Shown: piece after piece, positions 8,790 through 15,803 of the stretch
How positions within the stretch are numbered: the stretch's first letter is position 1
Layout: each line of letters starts with the position of its first letter
Source: Comamonadaceae bacterium OH2545_COT-014
GTDB taxonomy: Bacteria; Pseudomonadota; Gammaproteobacteria; Burkholderiales; Burkholderiaceae_C
Direction: 5' to 3'
Length of the DNA: 64,000 nucleotides
Assembly: GCA_003859965.1 (NCBI GenBank)
Contig: RQYR01000017.1
Span: forward strand, 1 to 64,000
Notes under the pieces: generated by a model
What the model was told of the DNA's origin: nothing
Databases searched by the model: none
What the model saw: only the letters and a program-made list of their open reading frames with translations
Translations under genes and position numbers: made by a program

Positions 8790-9695
8790 ATGCGCTTCGA
8801 CCTCATCACCCTGTTTCCCGAGCTGATCGCGCCCTTCCTGCAAGTGGGCATCACGCGCCGCGCCTACAGCAGCGGGCAGGTGCAGGTGCGCACCTGGAAC
8901 CCGCGCGACTTTGCCGACGGCAACTACCGCCGCGTGGACGACCGGCCCTTTGGCGGCGGCCCCGGCATGGTGATGATGGCCGAGCCGCTGGCGCGCTGCC
9001 TGGCCGCCGCGCGCGCCGACCGGGGCGAAGCGGCGGGCGACCCGGCTGGTTTGGCCGGTTCGGACGATTCGGCCGATTCCGTCAGTCCGTCCACGTCTGC
9101 TGACGCAGAGGCCAGCGCCAGCCCCGGCCCTGCTGCCGGGCCGCCCGTGGCGCCGGCTGGCGGGCGCGTCCCCGTGGTGCTTTTTTCCCCGATCGGGGCC
9201 GTGCTCAACCACGCCGCCGTGGCGCGCTGGGCGCACAGCCCGGCTGGCGCCATCCTCATTTGCGGGCGCTACGAAGGCATTGACCAGCGCTTCATCGACA
9301 CCCATGTCACGCACCAGATCAGCCTGGGCGACTTTGTCCTCTCCGGCGGTGAACTGGCCGCGCTGGCCCTGCTGGACGCCGTGGCCCGCCTGCAACCCGG
9401 CGTGCTGGGCGACGAAGGCAGCCACCAGCTCGACAGCTTCAACCCCGCGCTGGACGGCCTGCTGGACTGCCCCCACTACACCCGCCCCGAAGTCTGGCAA
9501 GGCCAAAGCGTGCCCGCGCCGCTGCTGAGCGGCCACCACGCGCACATCGAACGCTGGCGGCGCGACCAGCGCCTGAGCCTCACCGCCCGCCACCGCCCCG
9601 ACCTCATCGCCGCCGCCCGCGCCGCCGACCGCCTGAGCGCCGCTGATGAGGCCGCGCTGGCCCGCCCCTCCACTACGCCCAACTCGGCGGAATAA
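8790..9695 (+). CDS. trmD: tRNA (guanine-N1-)-methyltransferase TrmD
   Basis: Forms m1G37 in tRNAs with G at 36, using SAM, as a dimer with a trefoil knot. Clear motifs: [13 protein letters not shown] start, [17 protein letters not shown], the knot motif [15 protein letters not shown], and [15 protein letters not shown]. At 301 residues it is about 45 longer than typical TrmD because of a Ser/Ala/Pro/Asp-rich insert (about residues 72-120) between the GPGMVMM region and [10 protein letters not shown]. The usual rpsP-rimM-trmD-rplS arrangement is absent: upstream is hslO-GNAT and downstream is a non-coding gap. Confidence 0.95.
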
Positions 9696-10100: not shown

Positions 10101-11948
10101 ATGCTGACGGGCCTGCGCCGCAGCCTGTGCAGCAAGAGCTGGCTGGTGGATTTGCCGCTGATCGCGTTGGCCTGGTGGGGGGCGTTCTGGCTGCGCTTCA
10201 ACCTGGGCGTGCCGCCGCCGTATTTCGGCCAGGCGCTGCGCACCCTGCCGCTGGCGCTGGCGGGCATGGCGCTGGCGCTGCTGGCGGCCCGGGTGCCGCG
10301 CCAGTCGTGGCGCTATGTCAGCCTGGCCGATCTGCGGCGGCTGGCCGGGGCGGTGGCGCTGGGCGGGCTGCTGACCACGGCGGCGGTGCTGTGGCTGCGG
10401 GCGCCGGGGTTTCCGCGCTCGGTTTTCGTCATCAGCGCGGCGCTGACGCTGCTGCTGCTGGCGGCGGCGCGCGCGGCCTGGCGCTCGCTGATGGAGCGCA
10501 CGCAGGCGCTGGCGCACGGGCGGCCGGGCGCGGCGGCGCAGCCGCTGCTGGTGGTGGGCACGCTGGATGAAGCCGACCAGGCCTTGCGCACCCTCAAAGG
10601 CGTGCCCGGCTGGCAGGTGGTGGGCATTGCCTCGCCACGCGCGCAGGACGCCGGCCGCACGGTGCAAGGGGTGCGCGTGCTGGGCGGGGTGGACGCGCTG
10701 GATGCGCTGGCCCGCCGCCACCAGGCCGAGACGGCGCTGCTGGCCAGCGCGCCGGGCGATCCGCTGCGGCGCGAGGTGCTGCTGCGCTGGTCAGGCACGC
10801 CCCTGAATCTGCTCACGCTGCCCGCGGCCAGCGAATGGCTGGCGGGAGAAGGCGCGCCCGCCGCGCCGCGCCGCGTGGCGCTGGAAGACCTGCTGGGCCG
10901 CGAGGCGGTGCAACTGGACGCGCCGGGGCTGGCCGCGCTGATCTCCGGCCAGACGGTGATGGTGACGGGCGCGGGCGGCTCCATCGGCGCCGAGCTGTGC
11001 CGCCAGATTGCCCGCTTTGGCGCGGCGCGGCTGGTGTGCGTGGACGTGTCGGAGTTCGCCACCTATACGCTGGAGCAGACCTTGCAGCGCCAGCACCCGC
11101 AGTTGCAGGGCCTGTACTACACGGCCAACGTGCGCGAGCCGCAGCGCCTGCTGGCCATCGCGCGCCAGCACCGCCCCGTGGTGGTGTTTCATGCCGCCGC
11201 CTACAAGCACGTGCCGCTGATGGAGCACAACGAGATCGAGGCGCTGCGCACCAACGTGCTGGGCACGCTGCACGCCGCGCGCGCGGCGGGCGAGGCGGGG
11301 GCGGCGCGCTTCGTGCTGGTGTCCACCGACAAGGCCGTCAACCCCACCAGCGTCATGGGCGCCAGCAAACGCCTGGCCGAGCGCGTGGTGCAGGGGCTGG
11401 CGCCGGCGTATCCCGGCACGCGCTTCGTGTCGGTGCGCTTTGGCAACGTGCTTGGTTCCAGCGGCTCGGTGGTGCCGCTGTTTTCGGCGCAGATCGCGCG
11501 CGGCGGGCCGGTGACGGTGACGCACCCGGACATCGTGCGCTACTTCATGACCATTCCCGAAGCCGCGCAACTGGTGCTGCAAGCGGGCTGGATGGGCGAG
11601 AGCGGCCAGATCTTCGTGCTGGACATGGGCGAGCCGGTCAAGATTGCCGAGCTGGCGCGTCTGCTGATCCGCCTGTCCGGCAAGAGCGAAGCCGAAGCGC
11701 CCATCGTCTTCACCGGCTTGCGCCCCGGCGAAAAGCTCTATGAGGAGCTGCTGGCCAGCGACGAAACCACCGAACCCACGCCCCATCCCAAGCTGCGCAT
11801 CTCCAAGGCGTCGGCGGATGCCGGGGCCGACGCCGATGCCGTGGCCCGCTGGATCGACGGCCCCGGCAGCCAGGCCAGCGGCCCCGCGCTGCGCCAGTGG
11901 CTGCGCGCGCAGGTGCCGGAATACCGTGAGCCGCCCGCGCTGGGCTGA
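10101..11948 (+). CDS. CapD/WbpM/PglF-like membrane nucleotide-sugar 4,6-dehydratase
   Basis: A 615-residue inner-membrane enzyme. About four hydrophobic helices come first (roughly residues 15-130: LVDLPLIALAWWGAFWLRF and following), then a small Rossmann domain (about 145-265), then the catalytic SDR domain with VTGAGGSIGAEL near 286-297. Active-site segment STDKAVNPTSVMGASKR at about 408-424 has Met in place of the usual SDR Tyr, as in UDP-GlcNAc inverting/retaining 4,6-dehydratases of the FlaA1/WbpM group. The product would be a UDP-4-keto-6-deoxy sugar for glycan synthesis. It is followed by a dehydrogenase-aminotransferase fusion and a sugar transferase on the same strand. Confidence 0.92.
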   Translation: MLTGLRRSLCSKSWLVDLPLIALAWWGAFWLRFNLGVPPPYFGQALRTLPLALAGMALALLAARVPRQSWRYVSLADLRRLAGAVALGGLLTTAAVLWLRAPGFPRSVFVISAALTLLLLAAARAAWRSLMERTQALAHGRPGAAAQPLLVVGTLDEADQALRTLKGVPGWQVVGIASPRAQDAGRTVQGVRVLGGVDALDALARRHQAETALLASAPGDPLRREVLLRWSGTPLNLLTLPAASEWLAGEGAPAAPRRVALEDLLGREAVQLDAPGLAALISGQTVMVTGAGGSIGAELCRQIARFGAARLVCVDVSEFATYTLEQTLQRQHPQLQGLYYTANVREPQRLLAIARQHRPVVVFHAAAYKHVPLMEHNEIEALRTNVLGTLHAARAAGEAGAARFVLVSTDKAVNPTSVMGASKRLAERVVQGLAPAYPGTRFVSVRFGNVLGSSGSVVPLFSAQIARGGPVTVTHPDIVRYFMTIPEAAQLVLQAGWMGESGQIFVLDMGEPVKIAELARLLIRLSGKSEAEAPIVFTGLRPGEKLYEELLASDETTEPTPHPKLRISKASADAGADADAVARWIDGPGSQASGPALRQWLRAQVPEYREPPALG

Positions 11949-12068: not shown

Positions 12069-12125
12069 GGCCAAAGTGCCGCCAGGGCAGTCTGAATCTG
12101 CCCAAGGTGCTATGATTTTTAAATG
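12069..12125 (-). repeat. Palindromic element copy upstream of the Ugd-DegT gene
   Basis: GGCCAAAGTGCCGCC, inverted repeat GGGCAG-TCTGAAT-CTGCCC, then AAGGTGCTATGATTTTTAAATG. The order hairpin-then-box is the reverse orientation and matches the copy in mnmC closely (TGCCGCCA...CTGCCCAAGG...GCTATGA). It ends 48 bp before the start codon of the fusion gene and adds AT-rich sequence to its leader. Confidence 0.65.
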
Positions 12126-12172
12126 AATTGCCACCTTTGCCACCCAGGCCGGCTTTTGGCGGGAGCGCTGTC

Positions 12173-14905
12173 ATGAACCTGAGCATCATCGGTACGGGCT
12201 ATGTGGGCCTGGTCACGGGCGCCTGCCTGGCCGAGATGGGCAATCATGTGCTGTGCCTGGACGTGGACGCGGCGCGCATCGCCGCCTTGCAGCGTGGCGA
12301 AATGCCGATTTACGAAGCGGGTCTGCCCGAGCTGGTGGCGCGCAACGCGGCCAGCGGGCGGCTGGCTTTCACCACCGACATGGCGGCAGCCGTGGCGCAT
12401 GGGCAGTTGCTGTTCATCGCCGTGGGCACGCCGCAGGGCGAGGACGGCGCGGCCGACCTGCAGCATGTGCTGGCCGCCGCGCGCGACGTGGCGGCGCACA
12501 TGGCGGGCGGGGCCTGCCAGGTCATCGTCAACAAGAGCACGGTGCCCGTGGGCACGGCCGCGCGCGTGCGCCAGCAGGTGCAGGCCGTGCTGGACGCGCG
12601 CGGCGTGGCGGCCGACTTTGCCGTGGTGTCCAACCCCGAGTTCCTGAAGGAAGGCGCGGCGGTGCAGGACTTCATGCGCCCCGACCGCGTGGTACTGGGC
12701 ACGGATGACGCGCGCGCGCTGGCCCTGATGCGCCAGCTCTACGCCCCCTTCATGCGCAACCACGACCGCCTGATCTGCATGGACGTGGCCAGCGCCGAGC
12801 TGACCAAGTACGCCGCCAACGCCATGCTGGCCACGCGCATCAGCTTCATGAACGAGCTGGCCCTGCTGGCCGAGCGCTGCGGGGCCGACATCGAGCAGGT
12901 ACGCACCGGCATCGGCGCCGATCCGCGCATTGGCACGCACTTTCTCTACGCCGGCACGGGCTATGGCGGCTCGTGCTTTCCCAAGGACGTGGCCGCGCTC
13001 GCCCGCACCGGGCAGGCGGCCGGGCAGCCCATGCACATCCTGCAGGCGGTGGCGCGCGTGAACCAGCGGCAAAAGCAGGTGCTGCTGGACAAGGTGGCGC
13101 GGCGCTTTGGCGACGACTTGCGCGGGCGGCGCTTTGCCGTCTGGGGGCTGGCCTACAAGCCCGGCACCGACGACATGCGCGAAGCCCCCAGCCTCACCGT
13201 GGTGCGCGGCCTGCTGGCGCGCGGCGCGCAGGTGGCCGCGTATGACCCGGTGGCCACGGCCAGCGCGCGCCAGGCGCTGGGCGCGCCGGCCGGCCTGCAC
13301 TACGCCGCCAGCGCCCAGGCCGCGCTGCAGGGGGCGGACGCGCTGCTCATCCTCACCGAATGGAAAGAGTTCCGCAGCCCCGACTGGGCGCGGCTGCGCC
13401 AGGCATTGCGCACGCCCGTGGTGTTCGATGGCCGGAACCTCTACGAACCCGCCGCCATGCAGGCGCAGGGCATCGAGTACCACGCCATCGGCCGCGCCGC
13501 GGCCGCACACGATGACTGCCGCGCCGCGGCTACGCACGATGACCGGCGCGCCGCGGCCGTGCACGATGGCGCCCCCGCCACGGCCCTGCCTGATGCCGGC
13601 TGCGCCGCCGCTGCGCACGAAGGCCAAGGCATACCGCCCGCGCCGGAAGGCAGTCGCGCCGTGGCGGCGCCGCACGCGCTCTCGACGGCCATGGCGGCCA
13701 CGGCGGCAGGCGAGGGCGCTGCGCCCGCCGCCGCGCCAGCGCCTGATACCGCCGCCCCGCCGTTCCTGCCCTTTGCCCGTCCCGACATTGGCGAGGCCGA
13801 AGTCGCCGCCGTCACGCGCGCGCTGCGCTCCGGCTGGGTCACCACCGGGCCGGAAACCCGGGCGTTTGAGAAGGAGTTCGCCGCCTTCATGGGCGGCGGC
13901 GTACAGGCCGTGGCCGTCAACAGCGCCACCGCCGGGCTGCACCTGGCGCTGGAGGCCGTGGGCGTGGGGCCGGGCGACGAGGTGATCGCCCCCACGCTCA
14001 CCTTCACCGCCACGGTGGAAGTGGCGCGCTACCTGGGGGCCGACGCGGTGCTGGTCGATGTGCTGCCGGGCACGCTCAACCTGGATCCGGCCGCCGTCGA
14101 GGCCGCCATCACCCCCCGCACCCGCGCCATCGTGCCCGTGCACTACGGCGGCCTGGCCTGCGACATGGCGGCCATCCTCGCCATCGCCCGCAAACACGGC
14201 CTGCGCGTGGTGGAAGACGCCGCGCATGCGCTGCCCGCCACCTGCCAGGGGCAGCTCGTGGGCCGGCTGGACAGTGATGCCACCGTGTTCAGCTTCTACG
14301 CCAACAAGACCATGACCTGCGGCGAAGGCGGCATGGCGCTCACGCACAGCGAGGATCTGGCCGCGCGCATGCGCGTGATGCGCCTGCACGGCATCAGCCG
14401 CGACGCGTTCGACCGCTTCACCAGCCGCACGCCCGCGTGGTACTACGAGATCGTGGCCCCCGGCTTCAAATACAACCTGACCGACACCGCCGCCGCCCTG
14501 GGCCGCGTGCAGCTGCAGCGCCTGCCCGCCTTCGTGCAGCGCCGCCAGCAACTGGCCGCCCGCTATTTGCACCAGTTGGCCGGCCTGCCGCTGGTGCTGC
14601 CCGCCGACGCGCCTGCGGGCGAGGTGCACGCCTGGCACCTGTTCGTGCTGCGCCTGGCCGATGGCGCGCCCTGTTCGCGTGATGAAACCATCAAGCGCCT
14701 GAGCGATGCCGGCATTGGCGCCAGCGTGCATTACGTGCCGCTGCACCGCCAGCCCTACTGGCGCGACCGCTATGGCCTGCGGCCGGCGCAGTTTCCCGTG
14801 GCCGAGGCGGCCTGGCAGCGCATGTTCAGCATTCCGCTGTTCACGGCCATGAGCGATGCCGAGCAAGACCGCGTGATCGCCGCGCTGCGGACCGTGCTGG
14901 CATGA
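12173..14905 (+). CDS. Fused UDP-glucose/GDP-mannose dehydrogenase and DegT/DnrJ/EryC1/StrS aminotransferase
   Basis: A single 910-residue frame with two enzymes. Residues 1-437 form a UDP-glucose 6-dehydrogenase-type protein: NAD motif [10 protein letters not shown] at 7-16, [10 protein letters not shown], catalytic Cys268 in YGGSCFPKD, and [16 protein letters not shown]. Residues about 438-530 are an Ala/His/Asp/Pro-rich linker with 9-residue repeats. Residues 531-910 are a PLP aminotransferase: [31 protein letters not shown], and PLP-lysine Lys712 in [17 protein letters not shown] 12173 gives [12 protein letters not shown] with GGGAG upstream. Known separate enzymes make UDP-glucuronate and amino sugars. 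Fusion to one chain is unusual. There is no stop or frameshift between the domains. Confidence 0.9.
13493..13573 (+). repeat. Three tandem 27-bp repeats in the fusion linker
   Basis: Three exact-length 27-bp units begin CGCGCCGCGG and contain CACGATG, at 13493-13519, 13520-13546 and 13547-13573. They encode 9-residue units of the type RAAA-HDD-(C/R). A further degenerate unit (CAAAAHEG) follows near 13599-13625. The register is a multiple of three, so copy number could vary without a frameshift. Confidence 0.85.
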
Positions 14906-15014
14906 ACGCCGGGATGGACGCCGGGGGAGCCAGCGCCGGAATGCGCGCCCGGGCATTCCGGCGCTGGCCTGTTGTGGGACGCAGGCCGGCCCGGATCAGG
15001 CTGCCTTCTTTTTC

Positions 15015-15140: not shown

Positions 15141-15803
15141 ATGAGCCGGCCTGCAAGCCGCCCTCGCCCTGTGCCTGGCCGGGGGCGGGCCGCCGTCAAG
15201 CGTGCGTTTGACCTGGCCGTTTGCCTGGCCGCGCTGCCGCTGCTGGCGCCGCTGCTGCTGGCGCTGGCGCTGGCCGTGCGGCTGGATTCGCCCGGCCCGG
15301 CCCTGTTCCGGCAAACGCGCGTGGGGCGGGGCGGGCGCCTGTTTCGCATCCACAAGCTGCGCACCATGCATGTGAACGATGCGGCGCAGGCCGGTGGCGG
15401 CCCGCTGCTCACGGCGGCGGGCGATGCGCGCATTACCCGCGTGGGCCGCTGGCTGCGCGTCACCAAGCTGGACGAGCTGCCGCAACTCATCGACGTGCTG
15501 CGCGGCGACATGAGCCTGGTTGGCCCGCGCCCCGAGGTGCCGCGCTACATGGCGCTGTACGCGCCCGAGGCGCGCGCGCGCATTCTCTCGGTACGCCCCG
15601 GCATCACCGACCGCGCCGCCATTGAGTTGCGCGACGAGGAACGCCTGCTGGCCCAGGCCGCCGACCCCGAGCGCTTTTATGTGGAGCAGCTCATGCCCCT
15701 CAAGCAGCGCCATTACCTGGACTACGTGGCCAGCCACAGCCTGGCAGGCGACGTGCGCATTCTGTGGGACACGCTGCGCGCCGTGGCGCGGCGCCGGGGG
15801 TGA
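15141..15803 (+). CDS. PglC/WbpL-like initiating sugar-1-phosphate transferase
   Basis: A 220-residue bacterial sugar transferase that moves a sugar-1-phosphate from a UDP-sugar to undecaprenyl phosphate at the inner membrane. Motifs: VKRAFDLAVCLAALPLL (re-entrant membrane helix), DSPGPALFRQTRVGRGGRLF, HKLRTM, TKLDELPQLIDVLRGDMSLVGPRPE, and VRPGITDRAAIELRDEE. The size (short, single N-terminal helix, no four-helix extension) fits the PglC class. As the last gene of the plus-strand glycan locus it would use the sugar made by the two genes upstream. ATG 15141 is the first good start. Confidence 0.9.
   Translation: MSRPASRPRPVPGRGRAAVKRAFDLAVCLAALPLLAPLLLALALAVRLDSPGPALFRQTRVGRGGRLFRIHKLRTMHVNDAAQAGGGPLLTAAGDARITRVGRWLRVTKLDELPQLIDVLRGDMSLVGPRPEVPRYMALYAPEARARILSVRPGITDRAAIELRDEERLLAQAADPERFYVEQLMPLKQRHYLDYVASHSLAGDVRILWDTLRAVARRRG

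Follow-up and report, generated by a model that had tools for sequence, protein, structure and literature searches.

A UDP-glucose dehydrogenase and a DegT-family sugar aminotransferase encoded as one chain in a glycan cassette of Comamonadaceae bacterium OH2545_COT-014

In the 64,000-nucleotide stretch of contig RQYR01000017.1 that was analysed (the window), a UDP-glucose 6-dehydrogenase (Ugd) and a DegT-family sugar aminotransferase are encoded as a single polypeptide: positions 12173-14905 of the forward strand form a stop-free frame of 910 codons and translate into 910 residues. The identical frame, also without a stop, is present on contig C9 of the source genome (G000:C9:12173-14902). 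The predicted chain consists of Ugd (residues 1-442), an alanine-rich linker of 86 residues, and the aminotransferase (residues 529-910), and its features and neighbours are listed in Table 1. The best joint explanation, to which we assign a probability of about 0.7, is that a gene pair of related bacteria was fused by loss of a stop codon, and that the product would act as two independent enzymes in two parallel branches leading to one lipid-linked glycan. Antisense to the whole fusion lies an open frame of 945 codons (12119-14956, reverse strand), which is probably an effect of the high G+C content and not a gene.

Table 1. Features of the fused frame, its cassette neighbours, and separate gene pairs in relatives.
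Feature	Position	Strand	Basis or remark
PglF/WbpM-type membrane UDP-sugar dehydratase (Polysacc_synt_2)	10101..11948	+	profiles; probable source of the aminotransferase substrate
UDP-glucose 6-dehydrogenase half, residues 1-442	12173..13498	+	Pfam domains, motifs, solved relatives
27-bp (9-codon) tandem repeat, 4.8 copies	13491..13620	+	RAAA-x-HDD-x-like units in the fused frame
Linker, 86 residues (35 Ala, 9 Pro)	13499..13756	+	translation
Possible internal start GTG, aminotransferase alone	13661..13663	+	GGAAGG upstream
DegT/DnrJ/EryC1 sugar aminotransferase half, residues 529-910 and stop	13757..14905	+	Pfam, PLP Lys712
Phosphoglycosyltransferase (Bac_transf), start at 15141 or 15171	15141..15803	+	profiles; may load the amino sugar onto the lipid carrier
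Adjacent separate pairs in relatives			L030, L031, L032, L035, L036, L038, L039, L042, L045, L047, L048, L051, L068, L071, L080, L104

Both halves are full length and retain their key residues, which rules out a broken or decaying half and bears out the sequence-only reading, which had described an uninterrupted 910-codon frame with a complete Ugd-type enzyme (Cys268) and a complete pyridoxal phosphate (PLP) aminotransferase (Lys712). The Ugd half, whose start codon is preceded by GGGAG, possesses three Pfam domains (UDPG_MGDP_dh_N at residues 1-189, a central domain at 207-298, and a C-terminal domain at 322-426), the motif GTGYVG at residue 7, Lys212, and Cys268 within GGSCFPKD (from residue 265); we take GxGYVG to be the NAD motif of UDP-glucose 6-dehydrogenases and the cysteine of GGSCFPKD to be catalytic. 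It passes the nucleotide sugar dehydrogenase model TIGR03026 (441.7 bits, cut-off 189.8) and falls below the equivalog cut-offs of TuaD (476.7 of 700) and AglM (390.9 of 670). The nearest solved structures are the UDP-glucose dehydrogenases 2y0e (the best, at 594.5 bits), 2y0d and 2y0c, presumably the Burkholderia-type enzyme BceC, which are colinear with the Ugd half across residues 1-441; whereas these are stand-alone enzymes, here Ugd continues into the linker and the aminotransferase. Judged by sequence, the first half is a UDP-glucose dehydrogenase with UDP-glucose as its predicted substrate. It is the only UDPG_MGDP_dh match in the source genome (E <= 0.001; genome 99.83% complete).

The second half matches the DegT_DnrJ_EryC1 family (PF01041) at residues 538-906 (427.2 bits; profile positions 2-360 of 360), and Lys712 within SFYANK (from residue 707) is presumably the PLP lysine. 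Its best solved relatives are labelled ArnB (8sng at 340 bits, 1mdo at 321 bits; also 4oca), and the top NCBIfam model is likewise ArnB (NF008658), with 402.8 bits against a cut-off of 631; the PseC model TIGR03588 gives 379.4 bits against a cut-off of 423.5. Because neither cut-off is reached, the sequence by itself does not assign the aminotransferase a substrate, and the candidate substrate is suggested by its neighbours. These provide a PglE-like context, in which genes for a PglF-type dehydratase and a phosphoglycosyltransferase stand next to that of the aminotransferase.

Within the searches made here, the fused form is so far unique. All genome samples count the source genome itself and overlap one another. 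In the genus sample, all 29 genomes match at E <= 0.001, and the match extends across both halves in the source genome only. Among the other 28, 24 have an aminotransferase at 70-82% identity located apart from any Ugd (22 near-complete or long, two fragments at contig ends), and their Ugd matches are mostly at 57-63% identity. No second full-span match was found among the matches listed for 60 relatives. The same was true of wider samples, at thresholds at which a too distant fusion would be missed: 100 genomes of the family (E <= 1e-190, 10 rows), the matches listed down to approximately 599 bits for 399 genomes of the order (E <= 1e-170), and 398 genomes of the phylum (E <= 1e-175, 11 rows), with two candidates scored per genome in the order and phylum samples. 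None of 192 matching plasmid records (E <= 1e-100) covers 80% of the query, and the titles and abstract openings of the papers listed in literature searches name no such fusion. The earlier statement that no described enzyme of this exact architecture was known to its author agrees with the genome, plasmid and literature searches. A domain-architecture search across Burkholderiales had been proposed with it; the similarity search of the order gave no second fusion among the matches listed.

The two genes are nevertheless established partners. No fused form occurs among the best 80 named loci, taken from at least 595 stretches in at least 568 relatives: ugd and the aminotransferase gene are side by side in 16 of these loci, 48 have ugd only, and 16 the aminotransferase only. 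A stop codon separates the genes in all 16 adjacent pairs (0 of 16 fused), which belong to Acidovorax, Simplicispira, Comamonas granuli, Methylibium, Azohydromonas and metagenome-assembled genomes. Gene order is as in the fusion, the encoded proteins are 66-73% (Ugd) and 67-79% (aminotransferase) identical to its halves, and a phosphoglycosyltransferase gene lies downstream as it does here, but the relatives have two genes where the source genome encodes one chain. In five of the 16 pairs (L045, L051, L068, L080, L104), the stop codon of ugd shares bases with an ATG or GTG that lies in the reading frame of the aminotransferase. The sequence-only reading was right to regard the two as normally separate genes, although the pairing already present in relatives was invisible to it; given the adjacency in 16 of 80 loci, what is new is the loss of the boundary between the genes and not their partnership, which was already known.

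The lost boundary could be an artefact of sequencing or assembly, in which case a stop in another frame would end ugd soon after residue 442, translation of the aminotransferase would begin at 13661 or 13691, and the repeat would lie in the spacer of an ordinary gene pair. The DNA here is rich in G+C and repetitive, the adjacent homologues are separate in all 16 cases, and one of the other frames contains TGA at 13513, 13540, 13591 and 13744, so that an indel of the right size within 13499-13591 would split the genes. The openness of the linker is uninformative by itself, since the DNA is GC-rich and 2462 of 5000 shuffles of the 258 nucleotides were also stop-free. Codon usage was assessed with a table built from the window's 28 other genes: six of 5000 shuffles, which destroy the tandem repeat, favoured the fused frame at least as strongly as the linker does, and the linker's per-codon log-odds in the three frames were 0.10, -0.52 and -0.82 (fused frame first). 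The fused frame is preferred both in the repeat part (0.17, -0.37, -1.15) and in the non-repeat part (0.02, -0.69, -0.45); two flanking intergenic stretches give negative values in all frames. The linker's preference is weaker than that of all 126 segments cut from the 28 genes. A stop codon hidden between the domains by a sequencing error, which had been raised as grounds for rejecting the fusion, is therefore unlikely, though one indel within 13499-13591 could create it. An assembly error as a whole is highly improbable given that the repeat part retains the codon preference of the fused frame, that the 27-bp repeat unit is a multiple of three, and that a coarse frame screen by eye (runs of at least 200 nucleotides) revealed no gene in the window broken by a frame switch.

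Differences among the repeat copies number 15, 15 and 16 at the three codon positions. An origin of the linker by copying from elsewhere in the genome is unsupported: beyond itself, it matches the genome in four places, each match being short and partial and none scoring above 42.8 bits. Low-complexity expansion in the window is not confined to the fusion linker, because in the translation of TrmD (8790-9695, forward strand) the match to the Pfam model is split in two, with an insert rich in alanine, serine and proline between the parts.

Gene order in the window is PglF-[ugd:aminotransferase]-phosphoglycosyltransferase, and the dehydratase does not reach the cut-offs of the PseB and FnlA models. 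Four of the loci with adjacent pairs (L104, L068, L051, L080) have the order wzx-oat-gt4-gt2-mt-ugd-aminotransferase-pgt-PglF (oat, acetyltransferase; mt, methyltransferase; pgt, phosphoglycosyltransferase), and four Ottowia-type loci (L033, L124, L125, L127) have wzx-oat-gt4-gt2-aminotransferase-pgt-PglF, without mt and ugd. The label wzx is based on a Pfam match (PF13440) in L033; the counterpart in L104 has no family match and is named by position. In L030, L036 and L071, a PglF-like gene (42-45%) is located at the opposite end. In the genus, all 11 short stretches have the aminotransferase, without ugd, beside the phosphoglycosyltransferase, and all five longer stretches have it beside PglF as well. 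A gt4-gt2 pair of the cassette type is present on contig C6 of the source genome (GT4 73% or 67% in two comparisons, GT2 72%); this pair (L132:5826-10452) is flanked by a tRNA synthetase gene of the W/Y type on one side and by a frame of 257 residues without a Pfam match on the other. No PglD-type acetyltransferase was found among the neighbours examined by Pfam profile. Some Ottowia-type cassettes encode a protein of 249-250 residues between the aminotransferase and the phosphoglycosyltransferase (L034:10040-10789, L128:9650-10396), with sub-threshold methyltransferase matches only (E 0.02 and 0.0042).

This context bears on how the two activities may be related. In the UDP-Ara4N route, a UDP-uronate is the precursor of the keto-sugar used by the aminotransferase, and the fusion could couple its halves sequentially in the same manner; the ArnB-labelled structures and the top-scoring ArnB model point in that direction. 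However, the score is below the ArnB cut-off, the profiled neighbours (the only genes considered on this point) encode a PglF-type dehydratase and a phosphoglycosyltransferase instead of ArnA, and in the Ottowia stretches examined the same aminotransferase accompanies PglF and the phosphoglycosyltransferase where ugd is missing. On this gene context, a coupling of the halves in sequence by way of UDP-glucuronate was set aside as very unlikely. By analogy with the known steps of PglF, PglE and PglC, the most likely route, given that PglF and a phosphoglycosyltransferase adjoin the aminotransferase, runs from UDP-GlcNAc through UDP-4-keto-6-deoxy-GlcNAc and the 4-amino sugar to the lipid carrier. 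Of the two mechanisms suggested earlier, formation of a UDP-uronate followed by aminotransfer in the same route fares poorly, whereas the tying of two branches at one site is the better fit, given these neighbours and the presence of the aminotransferase beside both of them without ugd in the genus.

In the careful trees, the Ugd half belongs to a 13-row set with 12 Ugds of tandem pairs (bootstrap/SH-aLRT 100/100), its place inside the set not being fixed, and 13 standalone Ottowia Ugds form a separate set (100/100). The aminotransferase half groups with 23 standalone aminotransferases of Ottowia, Brachymonas and relatives (98/88), and two standalone aminotransferases (L052 and L094) fall among the tandem ones. 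In AU tests on quick trees, neither alternative was rejected: placing the aminotransferase half with the 12 tandem aminotransferases gave p 0.061, and grouping the Ugd half with the 13 standalone Ugds of Ottowia gave p 0.224. Of 86 Ugd rows, 48 entered the trees, and the aminotransferase trees omitted seven of 49 rows, which were second copies of the same loci. A simple history may be that the ugd-aminotransferase pair is old, that the cassette ugd was lost in other Ottowia, and that the pair was retained and fused here; alternatively, Ugd may have been acquired from an Acidovorax-type donor. The standalone ugd of another Ottowia (L112:1531-6683) is beside glycosyltransferase-like and presumably epimerase-like genes, a locus that we suppose to be possibly involved in surface or lipid A decoration; of 13 further ugd loci, 11 contain a match to the epimerase-like gene, which has no close relative in the source genome (best 32%).

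In the preferred explanation, ugd and the PglE-like aminotransferase gene that followed it in a Wzx-type glycan cassette would have merged by loss of the intervening stop, and the 27-bp repeat would have expanded into the 86-residue linker. The chain would form two separately folded enzymes joined by a flexible tether. The Ugd half would convert UDP-glucose and NAD+ to UDP-glucuronate, and the aminotransferase half would convert the 4-keto-6-deoxy product of the adjoining PglF-like dehydratase to UDP-4-amino-4,6-dideoxy-GlcNAc, from which the adjoining phosphoglycosyltransferase would derive the first sugar of a lipid-linked glycan. The GT4 and GT2 enzymes encoded on the other contig could add glucuronate from the second donor. 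The fusion would set a 1:1 supply of the two enzymes, with no substrate handed between the halves. Partly overlapping with this explanation, the fusion may be functionally neutral, the chain being cut in the linker or the aminotransferase being made also from an internal start, so that the halves would work as they do in relatives. GGAAGG upstream of the GTG at 13661 and the alanine-rich, repeat-built linker, which resembles a drifting spacer, are consistent with neutrality, but in-frame GTG and ATG codons are expected by chance, the other candidate start, ATG 13691, has no motif like a Shine-Dalgarno sequence, and nothing resembling a cleavage site was noticed; this reading is possible, if somewhat unlikely. 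Slightly less probable, and put forward tentatively, is a bifunctional chain that keeps the initiating amino-dideoxy sugar and glucuronate in equal supply for one lipid-linked glycan while positioned close to the phosphoglycosyltransferase and to the membrane-bound PglF, as a natural scaffold of parallel donor branches instead of consecutive steps.

Known systems offer partial parallels. In the PglF-PglE-PglD-PglC route, dehydratase, aminotransferase, acetyltransferase and phosphoglycosyltransferase roles lead toward bacillosamine-type sugars (PMC1976384), and Pcryo_0612, Pcryo_0638 and Pcryo_0637 of Psychrobacter have dehydratase, DegT-type aminotransferase and phosphoglycosyltransferase roles (PMC8040287). 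Both systems bring these three functions together as here, but the present cassette has no adjacent acetyltransferase and has Ugd fused to the aminotransferase. Neisserial PglB, a single polypeptide with proposed transferase and acetyltransferase activities (PMC1976384), likewise joins two enzymes from a cassette of this kind, although both of its activities are in one branch and those of the present fusion would be in two. The plant rhamnose synthase RHM is also a gene fusion of nucleotide-sugar enzymes (PMC3220709), which carry out consecutive steps on one substrate, in contrast to the parallel branches proposed here.

For Comamonadaceae-type bacteria, the fusion connects ugd with a glycan cassette that contains PglF and a phosphoglycosyltransferase. 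It offers a testable case of whether fusing the enzymes of parallel donor sugars alters glycan assembly, because relatives in other genera still have the unfused pair, the repeat expansion at the joint can be seen directly, and the genome yielded no further Ugd.
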